This document shows positions 45,606 to 55,516 of a stretch of 64,000 nucleotides of DNA, piece after piece. Within the stretch, counting starts at the first letter, position 1. Each line of letters begins with the position of its first letter. Source of the stretch: Intestinimonas massiliensis (ex Afouda et al. 2020) (GTDB lineage: Bacteria > Bacillota > Clostridia > Oscillospirales > Oscillospiraceae); contig NZ_LN869529.1 of assembly GCF_001244995.1 (NCBI RefSeq), positions 1,095,264 to 1,159,263 of the forward strand. The letters run 5' to 3'. The translations under genes were made by a program, and so were the position numbers. Below the pieces are notes generated by a model. That model had not been told where the DNA came from, did not search any database, and worked only from the letters and a program-made list of their open reading frames with translations.

Positions 45606-45642
45606 CAAAAGGGCCCCGGATGCGCGGCGCATCCGGGGCCCA
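45606..45642 (-). terminator. Terminator of the flavin electron-transfer operon
   Basis: GGGCCCCGGATGCGC pairs with GCGCATCCGGGGCCC; on the minus strand it is followed by TTTTGC. Confidence 0.75.
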
Positions 45643-45650
45643 CTTTTGTC

Positions 45651-46091
45651 TTACAGCAGCAGGCCGGTGAGGCACTGGCCGGCCAGAAACAGGAGGAATG
45701 CGCTGAGGACCGGCGCGGCCCGGCACACCGGGCCGGAGGACAGGCGGTCTGCCATGGAGGTATAGAGCATGGCGGTTACAGCAAAGACTGCCCCGCCCAG
45801 CAGGCACAGCTCCAGCGCCTGGGCGGCGCTCACCAGCCCGGCGCACCAGGGCAGCAGACCGAGGGTAACCCCGCCCAGCAGGATCAGGGGGACCCACGCC
45901 CGCCTGGCGCCCGGAGCCAGATAGCGCTCCACAACCAGCGCGGCCAGGGAGAGGGCCGTCACCACCGGAACGTTCAGCTCCGGCAGAACTGTGGCAGGCG
46001 CAAAGGTCCTCCACAGCAGCACACACAGGCAGGCCAGACCGACCACGGCGGCCAAAATCACATTGAGCAGCAGGCTGCGATTCCGTTCCAT
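45651..46091 (-). CDS. Five-helix membrane protein of unknown function in the Rnf-like operon
   Basis: This 146-aa protein has five predicted membrane helices (LLLNVILAAVVGLACLCVLL; VVTALSLAALVVERYLA; WVPLILLGGVTLGLLPWC; LCLLGGAVFAVTAMLY; VLSAFLLFLAGQCLTGLL) and five scattered Cys, but no motif I know. ATG 46091 (GGGGGGA upstream) overlaps the rnfG stop. In standard Rnf operons rnfG is followed by rnfE and rnfA, six-helix proteins of about 190-200 aa; this protein takes that position but does not look like either. It is the last gene of the operon. Function unknown. Confidence 0.75.
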   Translation of the reverse strand: MERNRSLLLNVILAAVVGLACLCVLLWRTFAPATVLPELNVPVVTALSLAALVVERYLAPGARRAWVPLILLGGVTLGLLPWCAGLVSAAQALELCLLGGAVFAVTAMLYTSMADRLSSGPVCRAAPVLSAFLLFLAGQCLTGLLL

Positions 46092-46627
46092 TACCAATCC
46101 CCCCATTCCGTCGCGCTGGAGGACACATCCGCCCCGGTGACGAAGGCCGCCGCCGAGTTGACCCCCTTGGCGATGGCCTTGGAGGTCACCGTGGCCCCGG
46201 TGAGGGCTTCGATGTCCTTCCCCACCGACGCCTCCCCCGCCGTGCCCAGGAACTGGCCCAGGAAGGCGGTGTCGGTCAGGGCCTCCCGGCCCAGGCCATA
46301 GGTCTCATGCAGGTCCCGGACCACTACGCCGGTCACGCCGCCGTCCTTGCCCACGCCCACCAGGAGCGTCACGTCCCCCGCATAGCCGGCGGTGACGGTC
46401 TCAATCACATAGCCCGCATCCGCCCCATAGACGGCCCGGATGTTCTCGTCCTTTCCGGTGTATTCCTCCGGGACAAAGCCGGAGCCGCCGGGCAGAAGGC
46501 GGGCCATCATGGCCTCCCGCTCGGCCGCCCGGTTCCGCTCCGCCGCCGGGCGCAGGGCGGCGGCGGCCCCAAGCAGCACCAGTGCCGAGAGGGCAATGGC
46601 GGCTATCGGTCGTAAAAGCTCTTTCAT
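46091..46627 (-). CDS. rnfG: RnfG-like FMN-binding electron transport subunit
   Basis: The 178-aa protein has one N-terminal membrane helix (IAAIALSALVLLGAAAAL) and an extracytosolic FMN-binding domain with GYAGDVTLLVGV and HETYGLG. The covalent flavin attachment motif is EALTGATVTS (TGAT at residues 143-146); ApbE, encoded in the same operon, would link FMN phosphate to the last Thr. It would take electrons from RnfD on the outer face. ATG 46627 overlaps the rnfD stop. Confidence 0.92.
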   Translation of the reverse strand: MKELLRPIAAIALSALVLLGAAAALRPAAERNRAAEREAMMARLLPGGSGFVPEEYTGKDENIRAVYGADAGYVIETVTAGYAGDVTLLVGVGKDGGVTGVVVRDLHETYGLGREALTDTAFLGQFLGTAGEASVGKDIEALTGATVTSKAIAKGVNSAAAFVTGADVSSSATEWGDW

Positions 46628-47595
46628 GCCGCCCCTCCTTTCACCGCGCCGAAGCGACGGGGCGCGGTATAACGGTCGATGAGCCACACGGCGGCGTTCA
46701 TCAGCAGAATGGCATAGGTCACTCCGCCAGGGAACAGTCCGTTGTAGCGGAAGAGCACCGTCAGCACGCCGCAGCCCACTCCATAGAGAAGCTGGCCGCG
46801 GGGCGTGGCCGGCGAGGTGGCGTAGTCGGTGGCCATGAAGATGGCCCCCAGCATCACGCCGCCGCCGAATAGGCTGTAGAGCATCCACTGCAGCGGGTCC
46901 TCCCCCTTGGAAAATGCCAGGGTCAGCAGGGCCACAGAGCCCAGGTAGGCCACGGGAATGCGGGGAGAAATGACCTTTCGCGCCACCAGATAAACTCCGC
47001 CCAGGAGCAGCGCCAGGGCAGAGGCCTCTCCGATGCAGCCGGCCACATTGCCCAGGAACAGGTCCAGAAGCGGCGTTTCGGGCAGAGCGGGCATCTGCAT
47101 GTGGTGGAGCGGGGTGGCCGAGGTGGCCGCCTCCGCGGCGGAGCCCAACAGGGGCAGCTCCGCGCCGGGGGCGGCAAAGCGCACCAGCCAGGACGGCCAC
47201 AGCATCAGCAGGAAGGCCCGGGCCGCCAGGGCCGGGTTGAAGATATTCTGTCCCAGCCCACCGCACAGGCCCTTGACCGCCACCACAGCGAACACGCCGC
47301 CCAGAGCCGCCAGCCAGTAGGGCGCGGTGGCGGGGAGGGTCATGGCCAGCAGGACGCCGGTGACGGCGGCGGAGCCGTCGGGCAGGGTGTTGTGCTGCCG
47401 GGTCAGCACCCGGAACAGCCCCTCGGACGCCAAGCAGGCCAGAACGGTCACCGCCGTCAGCAGGAAGGCCCGTGGGCCGTAGGCCCAGGTCCCCGCCGCC
47501 AGGGCGGGCACGAGAGCGATGAGCACGTCGCGCATGATGCGCCCGGTGCTCTCCCTCCCCCGGATGTGGGGGGAGGCCGTCACGGTCAGGTTCAT
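46624..47595 (-). CDS. rnfD: RnfD-like membrane flavoprotein subunit
   Basis: The 323-aa protein has about nine helices and the RnfD/NqrB pattern: N-terminal SPHIRGRESTGRIMRDVLIA, PDGSAAVTGVLLAMTLP, GGLGQNIFNPALAARAFLL and the loop AATSATPLHHMQ, whose Thr in SATP corresponds to the covalent FMN site of RnfD (usually SGATP). It passes electrons through the membrane. ATG 47595 has GAGGAG upstream and overlaps the rnfC stop. Confidence 0.92.
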   Translation of the reverse strand: MNLTVTASPHIRGRESTGRIMRDVLIALVPALAAGTWAYGPRAFLLTAVTVLACLASEGLFRVLTRQHNTLPDGSAAVTGVLLAMTLPATAPYWLAALGGVFAVVAVKGLCGGLGQNIFNPALAARAFLLMLWPSWLVRFAAPGAELPLLGSAAEAATSATPLHHMQMPALPETPLLDLFLGNVAGCIGEASALALLLGGVYLVARKVISPRIPVAYLGSVALLTLAFSKGEDPLQWMLYSLFGGGVMLGAIFMATDYATSPATPRGQLLYGVGCGVLTVLFRYNGLFPGGVTYAILLMNAAVWLIDRYTAPRRFGAVKGGAA

Positions 47596-48902
47596 GAGGC
47601 ATTCTCCTCCTTCACGGCTCGTTTTCCCGCCCGGAAGGACTCCACCAGCGGGAGCCGTCCGGGGCAGACATAGGCGCAGCAGCCGCACTCGATACAGTCG
47701 GTGAGATTCAGCCGTCTCAGAGCGGTCAGGTCTCCCGCCTGCTCGAAGCGGTAGAGGTACAGGGGCTGGAGGCTCATGGGGCAGGCCGTCACGCATTTCG
47801 CGCAGCGGATGCACTGGGGGTGCGCCCCCTCTCGGTCCTGTGCCCGGGACAGGCAGAGTACCGCATTGGTGCCCTTGACCACCGGGACGGCCAGGTCAGC
47901 CTGCGCCACGCCCATCATGGGACCGCCGGAGAGGACCTTCCACACGTCGCCGGTCAGCCCGCCCGCGGCAGCAATGACCTCCGAAAACGGGGTGCCGATG
48001 CGAACGATGAGGTTTTTCGGCTCCCGCACCCCCTCTCCAGTGACGGTGACGATGCGCCGGGTCACCGGCTCCCCCTCGTACACCGCTTTGTAGATCGAAG
48101 CGAAGGTGGCCGCATTGAACACCGCGCAGCCCACGTCCTTCGGCAGAGCGCCGGGGGGCACCTGCCGCCCGGTGACGGCCTGAATGAGCTGCTTCTCCGC
48201 CCCCTGGGGGTAACGGGTGGGCAGGATCAGCAGTTCTATGCCGGGGAAGGTCTCCATCTGTTTTTTCAGGATACCGACGGCCTCGGACTTGTTGTCCTCC
48301 ACCGCCAGTACCGCCCGCTTGGGCTCCAGCACCGCCATCAGCGCCCCCATTCCCCGCAGCACCTGCTCGGGATAGGTGCACAGCAGCGCGTCGTCGGCGG
48401 TGATGTAGGGCTCGCACTCACAGGCGTTGGCAATGAGGGTGTCCACCCGGCCCATGCCGGCCACCGTCTTTACGTCGGTGGGGAAGGTGGCGCCGCCCAT
48501 GCCGACGATGCCCGCCTCCCCAATGATGGAGACGATCTCCTCCTTGGTCAGGCCGGAGAGGTCCAGATGGGGCTCCAGCGCTGAGGCGGGCGTATCCTGG
48601 TAGTCGTTTTCAATGACCACCGACAGCACCTGGCCGCCGCCGGGATGGGGGCGGGGCTCCACCGCCGTCACCAGGCCGGAAACCGAGGCGTGGACGGGCA
48701 CGCACAGGCCCTCCCCGTCTCCCAGCTTCTGGCCCAGTCCCACGGTGTCGCCGGGCTTCACCAGGGGGGTGCAGGGTGCGCCGATGTGCTGGCGCAGGGG
48801 GATGACCACCTGAGCGGGAATGGGAGCCGGGGCCGGGATGCCCCGGCCGGTCAGTTCCTTGCGGTCCGCCGGATGGACGCCGCCGAAAAACAGGTGTTTC
48901 AT
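47592..48902 (-). CDS. rnfC: RnfC-like NADH:electron acceptor subunit
   Basis: The 436-aa cytosolic subunit has the NADH/FMN-binding region (GEAGIVGMGGATFPTDVK, about 125-145; CECEPYITADD), the SLBB-type region, and two ferredoxin motifs CIRCAKCVTACP (from 364) and CIECGCCAYVCP (from 403). It should accept electrons from NADH and pass them on. In a full Rnf complex it works with RnfB, which is missing here. ATG 48902 lies 15 bases after the apbE stop. Confidence 0.93.
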   Translation of the reverse strand: MKHLFFGGVHPADRKELTGRGIPAPAPIPAQVVIPLRQHIGAPCTPLVKPGDTVGLGQKLGDGEGLCVPVHASVSGLVTAVEPRPHPGGGQVLSVVIENDYQDTPASALEPHLDLSGLTKEEIVSIIGEAGIVGMGGATFPTDVKTVAGMGRVDTLIANACECEPYITADDALLCTYPEQVLRGMGALMAVLEPKRAVLAVEDNKSEAVGILKKQMETFPGIELLILPTRYPQGAEKQLIQAVTGRQVPPGALPKDVGCAVFNAATFASIYKAVYEGEPVTRRIVTVTGEGVREPKNLIVRIGTPFSEVIAAAGGLTGDVWKVLSGGPMMGVAQADLAVPVVKGTNAVLCLSRAQDREGAHPQCIRCAKCVTACPMSLQPLYLYRFEQAGDLTALRRLNLTDCIECGCCAYVCPGRLPLVESFRAGKRAVKEENAS

Positions 48903-48917
48903 GCTTTCACCTCAAAA

Positions 48918-49952
48918 TCAAGTTCGGATGTAATCGGAAAATCCAGGGCTGTAACGCAATTCCCCATCCAGGTCCACCCACATGGCCTCCGCTCCACAGC
49001 GGTCCAGCAGGGCCTGGCCCTCCGCCTGGGGGAGGGTAAACAGAGCGGTGGAGAGGGCGTCGGCCAGGCCGGAGTCGGGGCACAGGACGGTGACCGCCCG
49101 CCAGCGGGCGGCAGGATACAGGGTGTCCGGGTCGATGATGTGGTGGTAACGCACGCCGTCCACCGTATAATAGCGCTGATAATCCCCGCTGGTGACCACC
49201 GACACATCCTGAACATAGACGGTGTGAAGGTAGTCCCCTTTCTCCCCGTCCGGATTCTGCACCCCCACCACCCAGGGCGCGTTCTCCACCGGCTTGGGGC
49301 CGGTGGCCCGGACGTTTCCCCCCACGCTGATGAGCAGTCCGGCCGGAGCGTTCCGGCAAACCTGCTCCACGGCGTACCCCTTGGCCACCGCCCCCACGTC
49401 CAGCCGGGCGGCGGGATCGGTGAGGCGGACGGTGGAGGCCGCCTCATCGATGACCAGCGCGTCAAAGCCGGTGTGCTCCCCCGCCTCCGCCAGGGCGGCG
49501 GCGCCGGGCAGAGCGGCGTGCTCCGGGTCCTCCACGCCGGCGTTCCGGGCCTCGTGCCACAGGGACAGCACGCTGCCCAGGACCACGTTCACCCGGCCGC
49601 CGGTGTCCTCATACAGCTCCCGGCAGAAAAGCAGCAGATCGACGATCCTCCGGTCCACCTGCACCGCCGCGCCCCCGGCGCCGTCGTTGACGGTCTTGAG
49701 GTTGCTCACGCCCTCATAGCTGTTGTAGATGTCAAACAGCCGGTGGTACTCCAAAAGCTGGTCGTGGAGCTCCTGGGCGGCGGCCCGGAAATCCTCCTCC
49801 CGCCGGGCGTAGCCCACCACGGTGGTGACGGTGTCAAAGAGGGTGAGGAAACTGGCCTCGTAGCGTTTGGGTCCCTCCTCCTCCGCCCGCGCGGAGCAGC
49901 CGGACAGCGCCAGCAGCGCCGCCAGCATCAGGGACAGCAGGCGTTTGTTCAT
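48918..49952 (-). CDS. apbE: FAD:protein FMN transferase
   Basis: ApbE covalently attaches FMN from FAD to Thr or Ser of extracytosolic flavoproteins. The 344-aa lipoprotein has a signal (MNKRLLSLMLAALLALSGC), LDVGAVAKGYAVEQVC, ISVGGNVRATGPKP, HHIIDPDTLYPA and SGLADALSTALF, all conserved; the Asp of DVGAVAKG and the Asp/Thr near the end bind Mg2+. Targets in the same operon are RnfG, RnfD and probably the twin-repeat lipoprotein just upstream. Confidence 0.94.
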   Translation of the reverse strand: MNKRLLSLMLAALLALSGCSARAEEEGPKRYEASFLTLFDTVTTVVGYARREEDFRAAAQELHDQLLEYHRLFDIYNSYEGVSNLKTVNDGAGGAAVQVDRRIVDLLLFCRELYEDTGGRVNVVLGSVLSLWHEARNAGVEDPEHAALPGAAALAEAGEHTGFDALVIDEAASTVRLTDPAARLDVGAVAKGYAVEQVCRNAPAGLLISVGGNVRATGPKPVENAPWVVGVQNPDGEKGDYLHTVYVQDVSVVTSGDYQRYYTVDGVRYHHIIDPDTLYPAARWRAVTVLCPDSGLADALSTALFTLPQAEGQALLDRCGAEAMWVDLDGELRYSPGFSDYIRT

Positions 49953-49973
49953 AGCGCTCCCCTTTCAGACAGC

Positions 49974-50004
49974 GATGGGGAGGGCCCATGGGGCCCTCCC
50001 CATC
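49974..50004 (-). other. Perfect stem-loop between the lipoprotein and apbE genes
   Basis: A 14-bp stem (49974-49987 with 49991-50004) with a three-base loop and no T-tract. It may stabilise the upstream lipoprotein message, so that the lipoprotein is made in excess of the enzymes. Confidence 0.6.
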
Positions 50005-50020
50005 GGGAAAAGCAATTGGC

Positions 50021-51091
50021 TCAGGCTGCGGCCTTCTCGATGAGGGTCTGGAACTCGCCGATGCCGATGGTGACGGAGGCGGCCAGATCGGCGTCGGTGG
50101 GGCTCTCGTGGTCGTCCACGGCAATGCCGCTCACCTCGGACACGGTCTTGCCCGTGACATAGGCGCTGAAGGCGGCAGCCTGCTCATACCACTCCTTGCC
50201 GATGGAGGACGCCTTTTTCATGCCGTAGGCATCGCCCAGCTCATTCTTAGAGGGCTGCGCGGCGGTCAGGTCGGTGGTGATCTTGCCGGCGGCGTCGAAC
50301 TTCACATTTGCCTGGACGGCGTCGATGAAGCAGCTCGTGACGGTGTCTCCGTTCAGGGTGACGGCGGCCACGGTGGCGTAGGCCTGAGCCAGGCCGTCGC
50401 CCTCGGCGGAGGCGTCCTTGCTCTTGGCCATGTTGGTGACGGAGGTCAGGGCCAGCTTGTCGCCCTTCCGGGCGCCCAGATGCTCGGCGTTGTTTACCGC
50501 GCGCTCAATGCCGGCGATGAAATCGGTGATGGACAGGGTGACGGAGGCGGCCAGGTCGGCGTCAGTGGCCTGGCCGTCGGCGTTGACGGCGACGCCCTTG
50601 AGCTCCTCCACCGTCTTGCCTACGGCGTACTCCGCCATGGCGGCGGCCTGCTCGTTCCACTCCTTGCCGATGGAGGAGGCCTTGCCCATACCGTAATCGG
50701 CGCCCAGTTCATTCTTGCTGGCAAAGGAAGTGGCGGGGTCGGTCGTCAGCTTGCCGGCGGCGTCAAAGCCGATCTTGGCCTGGATGGCGTCAATCACGCA
50801 GGCGTCGATCACGCCGTCGTCACCCACCGTGACGGCCACCAGAGACACATTGGCCTGGGCCTGGCCGTCGCCCTCGGCGGAGGCGTCCTTGCTCTTGGCC
50901 ACGCTGGTGACCAGGGACAGTCCAGTCTTGACGGCCGCGCCGCTCTCCGCGGGGGCGGACTGGGAGGGGGTGGGGGAGGGGCTGGGGGCGGGCGAGCCGG
51001 TGCTGACGGCAGGCTTGCCGCTGCATCCGGCCAGCAAGCCCAGGGACAGGGTCAGGGACAGGGCGGTGACAGACAGTTTTTTCAGGTTCAT
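50021..51091 (-). CDS. Lipoprotein with two tandem flavin-domain-like repeats
   Basis: The 356-aa protein has a lipobox (LLAGC, Cys23), a Pro/Ser linker, and two repeats (about 57-205 and 213-354) alike in sequence, each with AKSKDASAEGDG, KNELG.DYGM-type and ASSIGKEW.EQAA motifs. Each ends in TDADLAASVT (176-185 and 332-341). This lines up with the ApbE target pattern DxxSGATxT, with Ser183 and Ser339 at the flavin position. Listeria PplA, an extracellular-electron-transfer lipoprotein, also carries two flavins. Flavin attachment here is inferred from the motif and from the neighbouring apbE. Confidence 0.75.
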   Translation of the reverse strand: MNLKKLSVTALSLTLSLGLLAGCSGKPAVSTGSPAPSPSPTPSQSAPAESGAAVKTGLSLVTSVAKSKDASAEGDGQAQANVSLVAVTVGDDGVIDACVIDAIQAKIGFDAAGKLTTDPATSFASKNELGADYGMGKASSIGKEWNEQAAAMAEYAVGKTVEELKGVAVNADGQATDADLAASVTLSITDFIAGIERAVNNAEHLGARKGDKLALTSVTNMAKSKDASAEGDGLAQAYATVAAVTLNGDTVTSCFIDAVQANVKFDAAGKITTDLTAAQPSKNELGDAYGMKKASSIGKEWYEQAAAFSAYVTGKTVSEVSGIAVDDHESPTDADLAASVTIGIGEFQTLIEKAAA

Positions 51092-51114
51092 TTCAATTCT
51101 ACCTCCGTATTGGT

Positions 51115-51450
51115 TTATTTTGCGGGGGTGTGGGGCTCTATCTGCTTCATTTCAAAGTGGATCAGAAATGACAACAGCGCACGCAGGATGATGACGGCGC
51201 CCAGGACGGTGAGTTCGGTCAGGTCCCGAACCAGTACCGTCTTGAGAATCTCGGCCGCCATCTTGAATTCCAGGCTCAGGGCCAGGCCGTTGGCCAGTTG
51301 GAATTTAATATCGCGGGGCTCCCGGGTCACCAGTCCCTTCAAATACCGTCCGAAGGCTGCCACGGCGGAGACGGCCACCACGAAGATCCCCATCATCTCA
51401 CACAGGGGGATGAGGACGGACAGGGTGGTCTCAACGAGGGTTTCCAGCAT
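51115..51450 (-). CDS. DUF1622 small membrane protein
   Basis: The 111-aa protein has two or three helices (LSVLIPLCEMMGIFVVAVSA; FKMAAEILKTVLV; ELTVLGAVIILRALLSFL) and matches the DUF1622 pattern with its conserved LGLALEF-like segment (NGLALSLEFKMA). No function is established. Its start overlaps the previous gene by 20 bases, so it is an integral part of the operon. Confidence 0.8.
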   Translation of the reverse strand: MLETLVETTLSVLIPLCEMMGIFVVAVSAVAAFGRYLKGLVTREPRDIKFQLANGLALSLEFKMAAEILKTVLVRDLTELTVLGAVIILRALLSFLIHFEMKQIEPHTPAK

Positions 51451-51976
51451 AGGACACCTCCTGGGTGGGGATGGGCCGCTGTCCGGCGGCCAGCAGAGCG
51501 CGGAAGGAGGCGGAGGAGGCCGCTCCGGTGGCCAGGCCGGTGAGGACCGACACCGCCAGCAGGAAGGGCAGATAGGAGATCACGTACACCGAGCCCAGCA
51601 GCACCATGGCGGCGCAGATCTGGCCCAGGTTGTGGGCGGCCGCCCCCAGCACACTGACCCCGTAGACCGAGAGAGCGGGGATGCGTCGGGCCAGGGTCAT
51701 GGTCCCCAGGGCCAGCAGCCCGCCGGTGAGGGAAAAGGCCAGCGCGGACAGCCCCCCGCCGAACAATGACCCCAGGAAGCAGCGCAGCCCCAGAATGGTG
51801 ACAGCCGGGCGGGTCCCCAGGAAATAGAGGGCCATGAGGGTGACGACATTGGCCAATCCCAGCTTGACGCCGGGCAGAGGCACCGCTATCTGGAGCGGGA
51901 GGAATCGCTCCAGATAAGACAGCCCCAGCGCCAGAGCTACCAGCACCGCGCACAGGGCCAGCGCTTTCGCTTTCAT
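51431..51976 (-). CDS. Gx transporter family / EetB-like membrane protein
   Basis: The 181-aa protein has five to six helices and the Hpre_diP_synt_I (Gx transporter) pattern: GLSYLERFLP, VPGVKLGLANVVTLMALY-like (PGVKLGLANVVTLMALYFLG), GLRCFLGSLFGGG and SVLGAAAHNLGQ. Such proteins pair with NusG-domain-II proteins in flavin-based extracellular electron transfer loci; from memory the Listeria pair is EetA/EetB. ATG 51976 has GGGGGAG upstream. Confidence 0.8.
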   Translation of the reverse strand: MKAKALALCAVLVALALGLSYLERFLPLQIAVPLPGVKLGLANVVTLMALYFLGTRPAVTILGLRCFLGSLFGGGLSALAFSLTGGLLALGTMTLARRIPALSVYGVSVLGAAAHNLGQICAAMVLLGSVYVISYLPFLLAVSVLTGLATGAASSASFRALLAAGQRPIPTQEVSYAGNPR

Positions 51977-51988
51977 CCACACTCCCCC

Positions 51989-52372
51989 TTATCCTACCAC
52001 GGCGTCCACATCGGGCGCGCCGGTGAGGCGGATCTCCACCCGGTTGGGCAGGCAGACCACCGCCCGCCCCGCCGCCGAAACCCAGCCGCTGTGAACGCAA
52101 TCCGCACCGGGGCAATCGGCGTAGGTGACGGCCACCTGGCCGTCCCGGACGGTGATGGTGTTGGTATAGGCCCCTGTCAGGGTGAGGGATGCCTCCCGGT
52201 CCAGGGGCAGCTCCCCCACCAGCTTCCCCTCCTGATACACCCGCGCCACCACACGGTCGGTCCCGGCAGCCCGGGCCCAGAGCGCCAGCCCAAGGGCCAG
52301 GGCACACAGGAGGACGGCTCCGATGGCCGCCAGATCCCCCCGCCGGAAGGAAAGGCCCCCGCCGCGAGTCAT
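51989..52372 (-). CDS. NusG domain II / EetA-like membrane-anchored protein
   Basis: The 127-aa protein has one N-terminal helix (GAVLLCALALGLALWARA) and an outside NusG-domain-II fold with the signature CPGADCVHSGW and VCLPNRVEIRL. It is next to the Gx-transporter gene, as in other electron-transfer loci. It probably sits on the outer face; the two Cys may form a disulfide or bind a cofactor. ATG 52372 overlaps the preceding stop. Confidence 0.85.
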   Translation of the reverse strand: MTRGGGLSFRRGDLAAIGAVLLCALALGLALWARAAGTDRVVARVYQEGKLVGELPLDREASLTLTGAYTNTITVRDGQVAVTYADCPGADCVHSGWVSAAGRAVVCLPNRVEIRLTGAPDVDAVVG

Positions 52373-52866
52373 GACTCCCCTCCTCCGCCGCTCCGGCGGC
52401 GCATGACCTTCAGAGCCACAAACTGGCTGAGAAGCTCCACCGTCCCGGCGATGCCCAGGGGACCGCTGTCCACCGTCAGGTCATAGCGGGACAGGTCGGC
52501 CCACTTGCCTCTGGTGTGAACGCCGTAGAGGCGGGCGCGCTCCCGGTCCTGCCGGAGGGCCTCCCGCCCGGCCTCCCCGGCAGGCAGACCGTACTGCTGG
52601 ACGATGCGCTCCACCCGGTGGTCCATGTCGCAGTGGATGAACACCCGGATCAGCCCTTCGGTGCCGGAGAGCACGTGGTCGGCGCAGAACCCCACGATGA
52701 CGCAGGGACCCTGGGCCGCCATGGCCCGGATGGCGGCGAATTGCTCGTTTTCGCCGCCGCGCAGCTCCAGATCGGCGTCATGGCAGGGAATGCCCAGCCG
52801 CTGGGCCAGCCGCTGGCCGATTTCTTTGCCGCCGCTGCCGTACTTTCGTCCGATGGTGATGACCAC
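52369..52866 (-). CDS. Cytidylate kinase-like protein
   Basis: The 165-aa protein has the P-loop-like ITIGRKYGSGGKEIGQRLAQ of the cytidylate-kinase-like family (PF13189 type), a short lid (RERARLYGV) and RYDLTVDSG. The region after the P-loop is shortened and the usual substrate-binding residues are not obvious, so activity is uncertain. I chose GTG 52866 (GGGAGG seven bases upstream) over ATG 52884. It is the first gene of the flavin operon, overlapping the next by four bases. Confidence 0.7.
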   Translation of the reverse strand: MVITIGRKYGSGGKEIGQRLAQRLGIPCHDADLELRGGENEQFAAIRAMAAQGPCVIVGFCADHVLSGTEGLIRVFIHCDMDHRVERIVQQYGLPAGEAGREALRQDRERARLYGVHTRGKWADLSRYDLTVDSGPLGIAGTVELLSQFVALKVMRRRSGGGGES

Positions 52867-52961: not shown

Positions 52962-53002
52962 AAAAAAAGACGCCGCGAAACCCATTGGGTTTCGCGGCGT
53001 CT
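52962..53002 (-). terminator. Terminator of the histidine kinase gene
   Basis: AGACGCCGCGAAACCC pairs perfectly with GGGTTTCGCGGCGTCT; T7 follows on the minus strand. Confidence 0.88.
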
Positions 53003-53004
53003 GG

Positions 53005-54750
53005 TCAATCGGGCTCCGCCTCCCGTGACGTGATGGGAAAGGTCACGGTGAACGCCGCGCCCCCCTCCGGGGCGGCCTCCACCTCAACGCGCCCGCGGTG
53101 CTCCTCCACCACCTGCTGGACAATGGCCAACCCCAGGCCGGTGCCCTTCCCGCTCTCCTTGGTGGTAAAGAAGGGCTCGAAAATGTGGGGCAGCACCTCC
53201 GGCGGGATGCCCGGTCCGGTGTCGGCCACCCGGAGGCGGATGGAGCTCTGGTCAGCGCTGGTGGTGACCGTCAGCGTCCCACCGTCCTCCTCCATGGCCT
53301 GGAAGGCGTTGAGCACCAAGTTCAACAGGAGCTGGGAGAGCTGGGTCTCGTTGCCGTGGAGCCACAGGTGGCGGCAGTCCAGCCCCAAGACCACCTCTAC
53401 CCCCGGCGGCTGGGCCGGAGCGGCCACCTCCAGCACCCGGCGGACCAGCTCGTCGGGAGAGACATACTGGAAGCTGAGGGCCGAGTTCTTCCGGGACAGG
53501 TCAGACAGGCGAGAGATGATGGTCTTGGCCTTGCGGGAGGCGTTGTAAATCTCCAACACGCTGTCGTAGAGCTCCGTGTCCTCCGGCGGCAGCTTTTCCA
53601 GCGCCAGAATGCTGTAGCCCATGATGGGGGTGAGCAGGTTGTTGAACTCGTGCGCGATGCTGGAGGTCAGGGTGCCGATGGTCTCCAGCCGCTGATGGTG
53701 GGCCAGCTCCCGGGTCTGCCGGTTAAGCTCCTCCATGGCCTGGTTCTTCTTCCGCAGCACCGCCAGCTCCCGGAGGCTGCGCTCATTCCGCCGACCGGCC
53801 CGGATGGAGAGCACCGCCAGCAGCACGATTCCGGTCACCACCATGCCGCCGTAGGCCAGAAGCCGGACAGCCGCCAGATGCAGCGGGCCGATGACCCCGT
53901 CGTAGTTTACCGAAACCCCCACCGCAAAGAAGCCGTTGGTCTCCTCCGTGGCCGGGAGCACCGCCATGCGGGCGATGTAGGTCTCCCCGCTGCGGCAGTA
54001 ATTGGTCTCGTAGAAGGCCGTGCCCTCCCGGGCCTGCTCCTGGTGCTCCATCAGATAGGTCAGACCGCTGAAATCGCAGTCTCCCGCCTTCAGGTCGTCC
54101 ACCAGGTCCACCTGCACGCCGTCCATCGTCCGGTGGAGCAGGGTTTGTCCCCCCGCGTCCAGCAGCATGATGCGATCCTGGGTCCCGACGGTCAGGTCGC
54201 CCGCCACCCGCTGGTAAAAGCCCTCCAGATCCATCAGCGCCGCATAGCCCAGCCCCTCCTCCCGCTCCCGCACGAAGGCCAGGTAGATCCCCCCGTCCCC
54301 ATCCATGCACGGGCGGATGCTGACCATCCCCTCTCGGCCCGCCTGGGGCGGAAAGCGGTAGTCGGTGCGCCCCCCGGTGGAGAGGAACACCACTCCGTCC
54401 TGGAGGGCCAGCACCGCCTGGATCAGATCGTCCTGGGCCAGCACGTTCTCCTCCATTCGGTAGAGCAGCTCCGCGGTATCCCCTGTGGTCCGCCAGGTCT
54501 CCTCCGCCGTGTGGAAGCCGCGCCGTTCGGTGACGTAGATCAGATTGGTGCCGTAGCGGTTCAGATAGCTCTCCACACTCCGGTCCACCGACCGGGCCAG
54601 GCGGAAGAGCTGGTCGTCCTCGCTGGCCAGGAGGATATCCCCGTATCGGTCGAACACCCGGTAGACCATCCCCAGCCCGGTGACGATCAGCAGCAGGATC
54701 AGGCCCAGGACCAGAAAGAACCGCCGCTTCCTCCTTTTAACACGCTCCAC
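53005..54750 (-). CDS. Sensor histidine kinase
   Basis: The 581-aa protein has a membrane helix ([20 protein letters not shown]), an extracytosolic sensor of about 260 residues (Cache-like), a second helix ([20 protein letters not shown]), a coiled linker, HisKA with the phospho-His in [17 protein letters not shown], and HATPase with N box [22 protein letters not shown] and [20 protein letters not shown] 54750 has GGGGGG upstream; TTG 54756 is too close to it. It is divergent from a response regulator 82 bases away and lies just upstream of the flavin operon on the same strand, with a terminator between. Confidence 0.9.
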
Positions 54751-54762
54751 AGGCAACCCCCC

Positions 54763-54791
54763 TTGTCAAACGTCCTGTTTTTGTCTATACT
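54763..54791 (+). promoter_or_regulatory. Promoter of the response regulator gene
   Basis: TTGTCA, a 17-base spacer and TATACT, 41 bases before the ATG. Confidence 0.6.
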
Positions 54792-54832
54792 AACCATACA
54801 CGATAGGGTCCATGCTGTAAAGGGGGAGTATT

Positions 54833-55516
54833 ATGCCGGACATCGTGCTCATCGCAGACGACGACCAGGCCGTCCTCACCATGCTCTATAAGGTCGTGCG
54901 CAGCAACGGCATCGAGGCGGACACCGCCGCCAGCGGCGAAGAGGCTCTGGCGCTGCTGGAGCAAAAACCCTATGACCTGCTCCTGCTGGACGTAAACATG
55001 CATGGCATGGACGGCTTCCAGGTGGTCCAGGCCATTCGCCGCCGGGGGCTGAGGCTCCCCATCATCATCGTCAGCGGCCGCAAGGAGGACTATGACACCC
55101 TGTACGGCCTGGACATCGGGGCGGACGACTATGTGACCAAGCCCTTCAACCCCGTCACCCTGGGCGCCAAGGTCAAGGCCCTGATCCGCCGCAGCCGCAA
55201 CCATTTGCCCGGCGTGGACAGCGTCATCGCCGCCGGTCCCTTCCAGTACAACACCAGCACCCTGCGGTTCTATAAAAATGGTCGGGAGATTCTCCTGTCC
55301 TCCAAAGAAAACGCCATGATGAAGCTCTTCATCGACAACGTCAACCGCATCTTCTCCAAGGATATGCTCTATGACCTGATCTGGGGCGAGGCCATCATCG
55401 ACGAAAACGCCATCATGGTCTACGTCAATCGCCTGCGCCAAAAGATTGAAGAGGACCCGTCCAACCCCCAATACATCCAGACCGTCCGCGGCCTGGGCTA
55501 CCGCTTTGTGGTCTGA
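54833..55516 (+). CDS. OmpR-family response regulator
   Basis: The 227-aa protein has a receiver domain (1-120) with ADDDQ, phospho-acceptor Asp53 in LLLLDVNMHG, SGRKED and the Lys in VTKPFNP, then a winged-helix DNA-binding domain (130-227) with SSKENAMMKLF and YVNRLRQKIEEDPSNPQYIQ, TVRGLGYRFV. It is presumably the partner of the divergent kinase. Targets are unknown; the flavin operon beyond the kinase is a candidate. Confidence 0.9.
   Translation: MPDIVLIADDDQAVLTMLYKVVRSNGIEADTAASGEEALALLEQKPYDLLLLDVNMHGMDGFQVVQAIRRRGLRLPIIIVSGRKEDYDTLYGLDIGADDYVTKPFNPVTLGAKVKALIRRSRNHLPGVDSVIAAGPFQYNTSTLRFYKNGREILLSSKENAMMKLFIDNVNRIFSKDMLYDLIWGEAIIDENAIMVYVNRLRQKIEEDPSNPQYIQTVRGLGYRFVV

Follow-up and report, generated by a model that had tools for sequence, protein, structure and literature searches.

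A partial Rnf operon with a flavin-type lipoprotein in Intestinimonas massiliensis, probably a one-way electron exporter

A 64,000-nt stretch of the Intestinimonas massiliensis genome (GCF_001244995.1, contig NZ_LN869529.1, positions 1,095,264 to 1,159,263) was analysed; the whole stretch is called the window, and positions are counted in it. The region studied, 45651-52866 on the minus strand, contains ten genes in which RnfC, RnfD and RnfG are joined to the flavin transferase ApbE, a twin-repeat lipoprotein and homologs of proteins from extracellular electron transfer (EET) loci. We propose, at a probability of roughly two in three, that this operon is a one-way electron exporter built from half an Rnf complex, in which electrons would pass from NADH through RnfC, RnfD and RnfG to the lipoprotein and on to an outside acceptor. 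Loci with RnfC-RnfD-RnfG and TM5 (the last protein of the operon) and/or the lipoprotein with ApbE, and lacking RnfB and RnfE as this operon does, are termed hybrid loci. The ten genes are as follows.

45651..46091, minus strand: TM5, small membrane protein directly after rnfG (TM5 profile, strong matches in at least 34 of 400 family genomes)
46091..46627, minus strand: rnfG-like gene, single FMN_bind domain, motif EALTGATVTS (Pfam FMN_bind, 2.7e-14)
46624..47595, minus strand: rnfD, membrane flavoprotein, T161 in ATSATPL (PF03116, 6e-108; TIGR01946, 314 bits)
47592..48902, minus strand: rnfC, with NADH/FMN (flavin mononucleotide) domain, SLBB domain and two 4Fe-4S motifs (TIGR01945, 500 bits; Complex1_51K, 9e-45)
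48918..49952, minus strand: apbE, flavin transferase (Pfam ApbE, 3.3e-62)
50021..51091, minus strand: twin-repeat lipoprotein, each repeat ending DLAASVT (no Pfam or NCBIfam family; alignment of relatives)
51115..51450, minus strand: DUF1622 membrane protein, accessory (Pfam, 4.8e-18; 10 of 38 hybrid loci)
51431..51982, minus strand: EetB-like protein (Gx), PF07456 (Pfam, 9e-39; 12 of 38 hybrid loci)
51989..52372, minus strand: EetA-like NusG domain II protein (NusG_II) (Pfam, 3.1e-23; 10 of 38 hybrid loci)
52369..52866, minus strand: cytidylate-kinase-like protein, accessory (Pfam Cytidylate_kin2, 3.3e-35; 7 of 38 hybrid loci)

The genes are packed from 52866 down to 45651, and at four junctions neighbouring genes share 4 to 20 bases. 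A preliminary description, made from the sequence alone, had read the region as ten tightly packed, often overlapping minus-strand genes joining RnfC, RnfD and RnfG to ApbE, a lipoprotein and EetA/EetB-like proteins, and the gene coordinates, the Pfam and NCBIfam matches and the lipoprotein homology agreed with it. Its statement that the operon cannot be a ferredoxin:NAD pump as known also held, RnfB and RnfE both being absent from the ten genes. It had left room for rnfA, rnfB and rnfE just outside on the same transcript. This was rejected: none of the three lies among the ten genes or between the two terminator-like hairpins that bound the operon.

52968..53002, minus strand: hairpin separating the operon from the histidine-kinase gene (16-pair stem, T tail)
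45611..45641, no strand assigned (the scan gives the plus strand): hairpin after TM5 (14-pair stem)

The upstream hairpin (53002-52968) sits at the end of the histidine-kinase gene, and the scan of the region gave 11 terminator-like sites against 3.6 expected. The source genome (3.1 Mb, 7 contigs, 99.4% complete) has two RnfD matches and two RnfA/RnfE (PF02508) matches. A separate complete set, for which the preliminary description had suggested a search, was found: the second RnfD is part of rnfCDGEAB, located on the same contig at a distance of about 1.1 Mb, together with the only RnfB located in the genome. The operon is therefore a second, partial Rnf.

To judge from the cofactor motifs, the operon retains the NADH side of Rnf (RnfC-RnfD-RnfG), and the ferredoxin side is gone. 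Two CxxCxxCxxxC (4Fe-4S) motifs were present in all 34 hybrid RnfC, and the flavinylation threonine was present in all 34 hybrid RnfD (29 by pattern and five by alignment), T161 being invariant among seven aligned RnfD. The FMN motif of RnfG was found in 33 of 36 sequences by strict pattern, and the other three (L229, L237 and L249) carry (T/A)GAT variants. The RnfG of the operon scored 54.9 bits against TIGR01947, under the family cut-off of 102. RnfD matched PF03116 alone, over residues 7-318 of 325, and the NqrF-type NAD domain PF00175 was detected by Pfam in none of the ten proteins. In the Rnf complex of A. woodii, a [2Fe-2S] cluster held by C25 and C113 of RnfA and C25 and C108 of RnfE is described as gating Na+ movement; the cluster takes electrons from RnfB, which then run through RnfG, RnfD and RnfC (PMC11889175). 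In four hybrid loci of one genus (L044:10291-11946, L237, L239 and L241), RnfG has two additional FMN-type repeats, and the L044 frame also ends in a lipoprotein-like repeat.

The gene order was conserved in relatives, a point that the preliminary description had left to be checked. The RnfD of the operon was matched in 128 of 150 family genomes searched, and six of its 19 best places outside the source genome (L040-L045, in four other genera) contain the same unit; L044 and L045 end right after RnfG, so that TM5 and the absence of RnfA, RnfB and RnfE are not visible there. Among the other 13 places, 11 contain all six Rnf subunits, L058 is cut, and the L053 stretch shows no RnfB. The hybrid type was not seen among 60 further RnfD places, which were mostly lower-scoring and did not cover the middle scores. 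In the species collection, 73 of the best 80 loci have RnfA, RnfB and RnfE, two are hybrids (L120 and L121), and the remaining five break off at RnfD or RnfE or shortly beyond; two loci with the same operon in this collection are labelled uncultured Oscillospiraceae. The strong TM5 matches (E 4.5e-12 or better, source genome included) span at least 12 of the 106 genera sampled, and these counts are lower bounds, with ten candidates scored per genome. Consecutive RnfC-RnfD-RnfG-TM5 genes were seen in 31 of the 34 TM5 genomes (the source operon, L040-L043 and 26 of 30 further TM5 loci), the other three being cut by contig ends, and RnfA, RnfB and RnfE were not seen in any of the 30 further loci. 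The arrangement is thus not a one-off, and because it recurs in related genomes, the operon is probably a real and little-described way to export electrons.

Besides the source operon, 38 hybrid loci were available (eight from the earlier searches and the 30 further TM5 loci); some are cut, a few share one genome, and L120 and L252 have identical RnfC. By single-sequence searches, the lipoprotein was recognised in 31, ApbE in 32, RnfC, RnfD and RnfG in 34 each, and TM5 in 35. The counts were 12 for Gx, 10 each for NusG_II and DUF1622, and seven for the kinase-like protein. Since these last four are often missing in relatives, the conserved core is lipoprotein-ApbE-RnfC-RnfD-RnfG-TM5; of the ten-gene unit first described, the order of this core was kept, but the accessory genes often were not. 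No RnfB or RnfE was recognised in the 38 stretches, many of them cut by contig ends. A 24-bit match to the RnfB query lies upstream of NusG_II in L043.

The RnfC, RnfD and RnfG of the operon might be alternative subunits that join the RnfA, RnfB and RnfE of a complete set, giving a second ferredoxin:NAD pump under other regulation. Two strong PF02508 matches are indeed present in the source genome and in 26 of 34 other hybrid genomes (33 with TM5, plus G136); one of the remaining genomes has a fragment and seven have no match, four of these seven being 94-99% complete. The unit therefore need not borrow RnfA and RnfE. In a quick RnfC tree of 113 sequences, including 35 hybrid ones and 55 of 122 complete ones drawn at random with the rest left out, the smallest well-supported set containing all hybrid RnfC (SH-aLRT 99) had 36 rows, the extra row being L113. 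The complete-set RnfC of the source genome adjoined that of [Clostridium] viride. Hybrid RnfC thus appear to be one group with a single outsider, independent of complete Rnf, and they are accompanied by TM5 and the lipoprotein, which makes borrowed subunits very unlikely. The outsider itself (L113:6606-10582) has RnfC, a fused RnfD-RnfG and RnfA only, RnfE and RnfB not being recognised in 17 kb; its RnfA keeps one of the two cysteine motifs, and its RnfC forms a long branch with the hybrid clade.

TM5 stands after RnfG, where complete sets have RnfE and RnfA. Its hhalign comparison with RnfA gave Prob 76.7 and E 2e-5 over 55 C-terminal columns, a likeness covering the C-terminal part of TM5 only, whereas the E values were 0.04-0.09 for RnfE, 0.02-0.03 for RnfD, 0.08-0.2 for RnfG, 0.01-0.13 for Gx and 0.05-0.18 for NusG_II. 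In an order sample of 394 genomes, seven weak matches of the TM5 profile fell in Rnf genes (four RnfA and three RnfD). The family sample gave 21 weak matches, of which 19, each stopping at model position 142, were in RnfA-sized frames of 194-214 amino acids and two were in frames of 533-538 amino acids. Four of the 19 (L207, L048, L115 and G698) were placed as RnfA, the rest being assigned by size and position. No invariant cysteine was found in the TM5 profile alignment. On account of the RnfA alignment and the place after RnfG, the best reading is that TM5 is probably, with moderate confidence, a truncated RnfA without the cluster cysteines. The preliminary description, which had called the locus devoid of RnfA and counted a separate 5-TM protein, was therefore right about the cluster-bearing subunit, but that protein is probably a shortened RnfA relic. 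An origin as an RnfD fragment, raised by the weak RnfD matches (counting the two in frames of 533-538 amino acids, and several from a further search), was set aside on the hhalign values (0.02-0.03 versus 2e-5 for RnfA). The AlphaFold models of TM5 and the lipoprotein were poor (pLDDT 55.6 and 46.7), and a Foldseek search with them returned nothing under E 0.001.

Neither TM5 nor the lipoprotein had a convincing family match in the Pfam and NCBIfam libraries. The signal of the lipoprotein ends in LLAGCS and is followed by two repeats, whose ends in most relatives read D-L-x-[AS]-[SGT]-x-[TS]; ApbE is described as placing FMN on the last residue of D-x-x-[ST]-G-A-[ST] (PMC12052999). FMN-bind2 domains are reported to be often present in even numbers (PMC11334425). 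Because it resembles this published description, the repeat pair is probably one of FMN-bind2-type domains, with DLAASVT as a degenerate ApbE motif. The model, poor as it is, shows three strands and then helices, twice. A PDB sequence search gave two matches (E 0.22 and 1.0), the second of which, 2kzx, sets TDAISG-ATI near TDADLAASVTI, a suggestive alignment only. A supposed lipoprotein in L047 was rejected as evidence, being a 19-bit match to a longer open reading frame unlike the lipoprotein. In L045:4953-7058 and L241:9073-11226, the lipoprotein has four repeat-end motifs rather than two.

The same lipoprotein and ApbE were found in NDH2-prenyl synthase-UbiA loci at seven of the 20 best phylum places outside the source genome, and an eighth place is cut within UbiA. 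A. noterae also has a lipoprotein and ApbE locus of the NDH2 type. These loci bear on the direction of the wire. An outside reductant could feed the lipoprotein so that RnfC makes NADH, and the G-D-C segment of Rnf normally runs toward NAD+ (PMC11889175). Against this, in these other Bacillota the lipoprotein and ApbE are found together with NDH2 and quinone genes that belong to the electron-export type. Fermenting anaerobes, moreover, need to dispose of NADH, and an inward wire is accordingly the least credible of the alternatives, with hardly any weight. Twelve lipoprotein loci of other Bacillota (L295-L306) have neither NDH2 nor an rnf cluster in the stretch, and L302 has a lone RnfC-like gene.

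In Listeria, ApbE is described as being supplied by an FAD (flavin adenine dinucleotide) exporter whose FAD-binding subunit is EetB, and deletion of eetA left activity unchanged (PMC9973259). The EetB-like protein of the operon is by analogy a probable substrate-binding subunit for FAD export, and in view of these Listeria data the EetA/EetB-like pair is more plausibly a source of cofactor than a component of the wire. The earlier suggestion that such proteins accompany outside flavoproteins was correct for gene presence, but their role is probably one of supply.

No UbiA match was found in the source genome, whereas UbiA was present in all 14 control genomes. It was over the cut-off in 21 of 150 family genomes, leaving 129 without, and in one of 35 hybrid genomes (the source genome and 34 others). 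As the family mostly lacks UbiA, most of it is probably also without quinone. The ten genes include neither NDH2 nor any quinone-making gene; for NDH2 the search covered these ten only.

In the proposed exporter, RnfC would oxidise cytosolic NADH, and its iron-sulfur clusters would hand the electrons on to RnfD, whose flavins lie in the membrane. RnfD would then reduce the covalent FMN of RnfG outside, and RnfG would in turn reduce the membrane-anchored lipoprotein, which is predicted to bear two covalent flavins and could pass the electrons to an acceptor such as ferric iron or free flavin. ApbE would attach the FMN, with the EetA/EetB-like pair supplying FAD outside. RnfB is missing, and so is the [2Fe-2S] cluster of the membrane together with RnfA/RnfE, the known core of the sodium pump; of these, just the shortened RnfA-like TM5 is left, perhaps to hold C-D-G together as a scaffold. 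The operon would stand in for the NDH2 and demethylmenaquinone of the Listeria-type system and would thus work without quinone; the exporter is probably quinone-free. The additional FMN-type repeats in RnfG and lipoproteins of some relatives might fit an outward wire.

Several observations count against this proposal. L227 has no recognised lipoprotein and L229 no ApbE, though RnfC-RnfD-RnfG-TM5 are present in both, and in the operon's own RnfG the D of the motif is replaced by E. The lipoprotein lacks an FMN_bind match, its DLAASVT departs from SGAT, its model is poor, and the fold search was null. Listeria-type lipoproteins are said to carry SGAT motifs (PMC7074142), so any kinship to PplA itself would be tentative. 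In addition, 12 of the 20 phylum lipoprotein loci show no NDH2 in the stretch, and the lack of UbiA is common in the family and shows no clear enrichment among hybrid genomes (Fisher p = 0.08; the groups share some genomes).

A two-component system adjoins the operon.

53005..54756, minus strand: sensor histidine kinase, probable regulator (HATPase_c, 1e-29; HisKA)
54833..55516, plus strand: OmpR-type response regulator, divergent to the kinase (Response_reg, 1e-29; Trans_reg_C, 1e-23)

Homologs of at least 250 bits occur near 10 (histidine kinase) and eight (response regulator) of the 38 hybrid loci. Because it recurs beside about a quarter of them, the pair at 53005-55516 perhaps regulates the operon. 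The same wire could instead serve a single function, for example acquiring ferric iron, reducing one particular substrate outside the cell or sensing redox state, and not dispose of NADH in the manner of respiration; the adjoining two-component system and the absence of a terminal reductase among the ten genes agree with this, and iron assimilation has been proposed for some one-way Nqr/Rnf-like clusters (PMC8238504). Against it, the ten genes include neither an iron transporter nor a substrate reductase, and the multi-flavin versions in relatives suggest a general wire. We regard a dedicated purpose as unlikely, though it deserves some weight.

Another group of family loci (L087, L094, L096 and L097) has a related lipoprotein, ApbE, RnfC, RnfD, divergent RnfE and RnfA, and NusG_II, with no adjoining RnfB. 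A longer RnfG and Gx were recognised in three of the four, neither being labelled in L094; 29-31-bit matches to the RnfB query lie several kilobases off in L094 and L096. In the RnfA and RnfE of this group, 15 of the 16 ligand cysteines have been lost: RnfA has neither, and the same is true of RnfE except for the first cysteine in L087. Its RnfC formed one clade (support 100) elsewhere in the tree than the hybrid group, and three of the four genomes also have a normal RnfA/RnfE pair. The group is possibly another, separate case of one-way Rnf. Two other loci depart from the standard set. In L104:6272-10424, RnfC is accompanied by a fused RnfD-RnfG, a strongly divergent RnfE and a frame whose end resembles RnfA. 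In L070:4868-13542, NusG_II, Gx, ApbE and a related lipoprotein form a single run with a complete Rnf, and this locus may connect complete Rnf to the lipoprotein.

Compared with the Rnf complex (RnfABCDGE, Na+/H+ ferredoxin:NAD+ oxidoreductase), the operon has the order C-D-G, ApbE, an RnfC carrying the NADH/FMN domain plus both 4Fe-4S motifs, and the predicted RnfD threonine and RnfG FMN_bind motif, the RnfG score lying below the TIGR01947 cut-off. Unlike that complex, it has no RnfB in the cluster, no RnfE and no RnfA/RnfE pair with four [2Fe-2S] cysteines, RnfA being apparently reduced to a short cysteine-less relative that matches the C-terminus only; it also has a flavin-type lipoprotein, and the RnfA/RnfE pair is separate in most, not all, hybrid genomes. 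With the Listeria-type locus (NDH2-DMK-EetA/B-ApbE-lipoprotein), it shares ApbE, EetA/EetB-like genes and a twin-domain, putatively flavin-type lipoprotein, and homologs of its lipoprotein and ApbE are present in the NDH2/UbiA loci of other Bacillota; however, NDH2, prenyl synthase and UbiA are absent as electron input, and RnfCDG stand in their place. NQR/RNF-like systems, partial Nqr/Rnf thought to run one-way from NAD(P)H to an outside flavoprotein, are described as fusions of an NqrB/RnfD-like membrane domain with an NqrF-type NAD domain that lack the flavinylation site and occur primarily in Actinobacteria and CPR (Candidate Phyla Radiation) (PMC8238504, PMC11334425). The operon type, in contrast, occurs in Oscillospiraceae-type Clostridia and combines the lipoprotein with a genuine RnfC and with an RnfD that retains the flavinylation site and is not fused to PF00175. 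As RNF is defined by RnfB and the NQR/RNF-like class by the NqrB-NqrF fusion in the published scheme as excerpted (PMC8238504), the gene set falls between classes. No description of the combination was found in titles and abstracts of the open-licence PMC literature, which was partially covered, and supplementary tables may list such clusters.

Taken with the second group, we lean slightly toward a wider view, in which the half of Rnf on the NADH side was separated from the half with the ferredoxin side and sodium pump and became a quinone-free NADH dehydrogenase for EET in a mostly UbiA-less family of Clostridia at least twice, once with a shortened RnfA relic and once with full-length RnfA and RnfE losing nearly all cluster cysteines. 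If the export reading is true, Rnf would be modular, and C-D-G could be a stand-alone NADH oxidiser sending electrons outward without the Na+-gating [2Fe-2S] cluster. Such natural deletions would be useful for finding which part of Rnf pumps ions, and annotation of rnfC, rnfD and rnfG need not mean a ferredoxin:NAD pump. Anaerobes without quinone genes would gain a route for electron disposal outside the cell.

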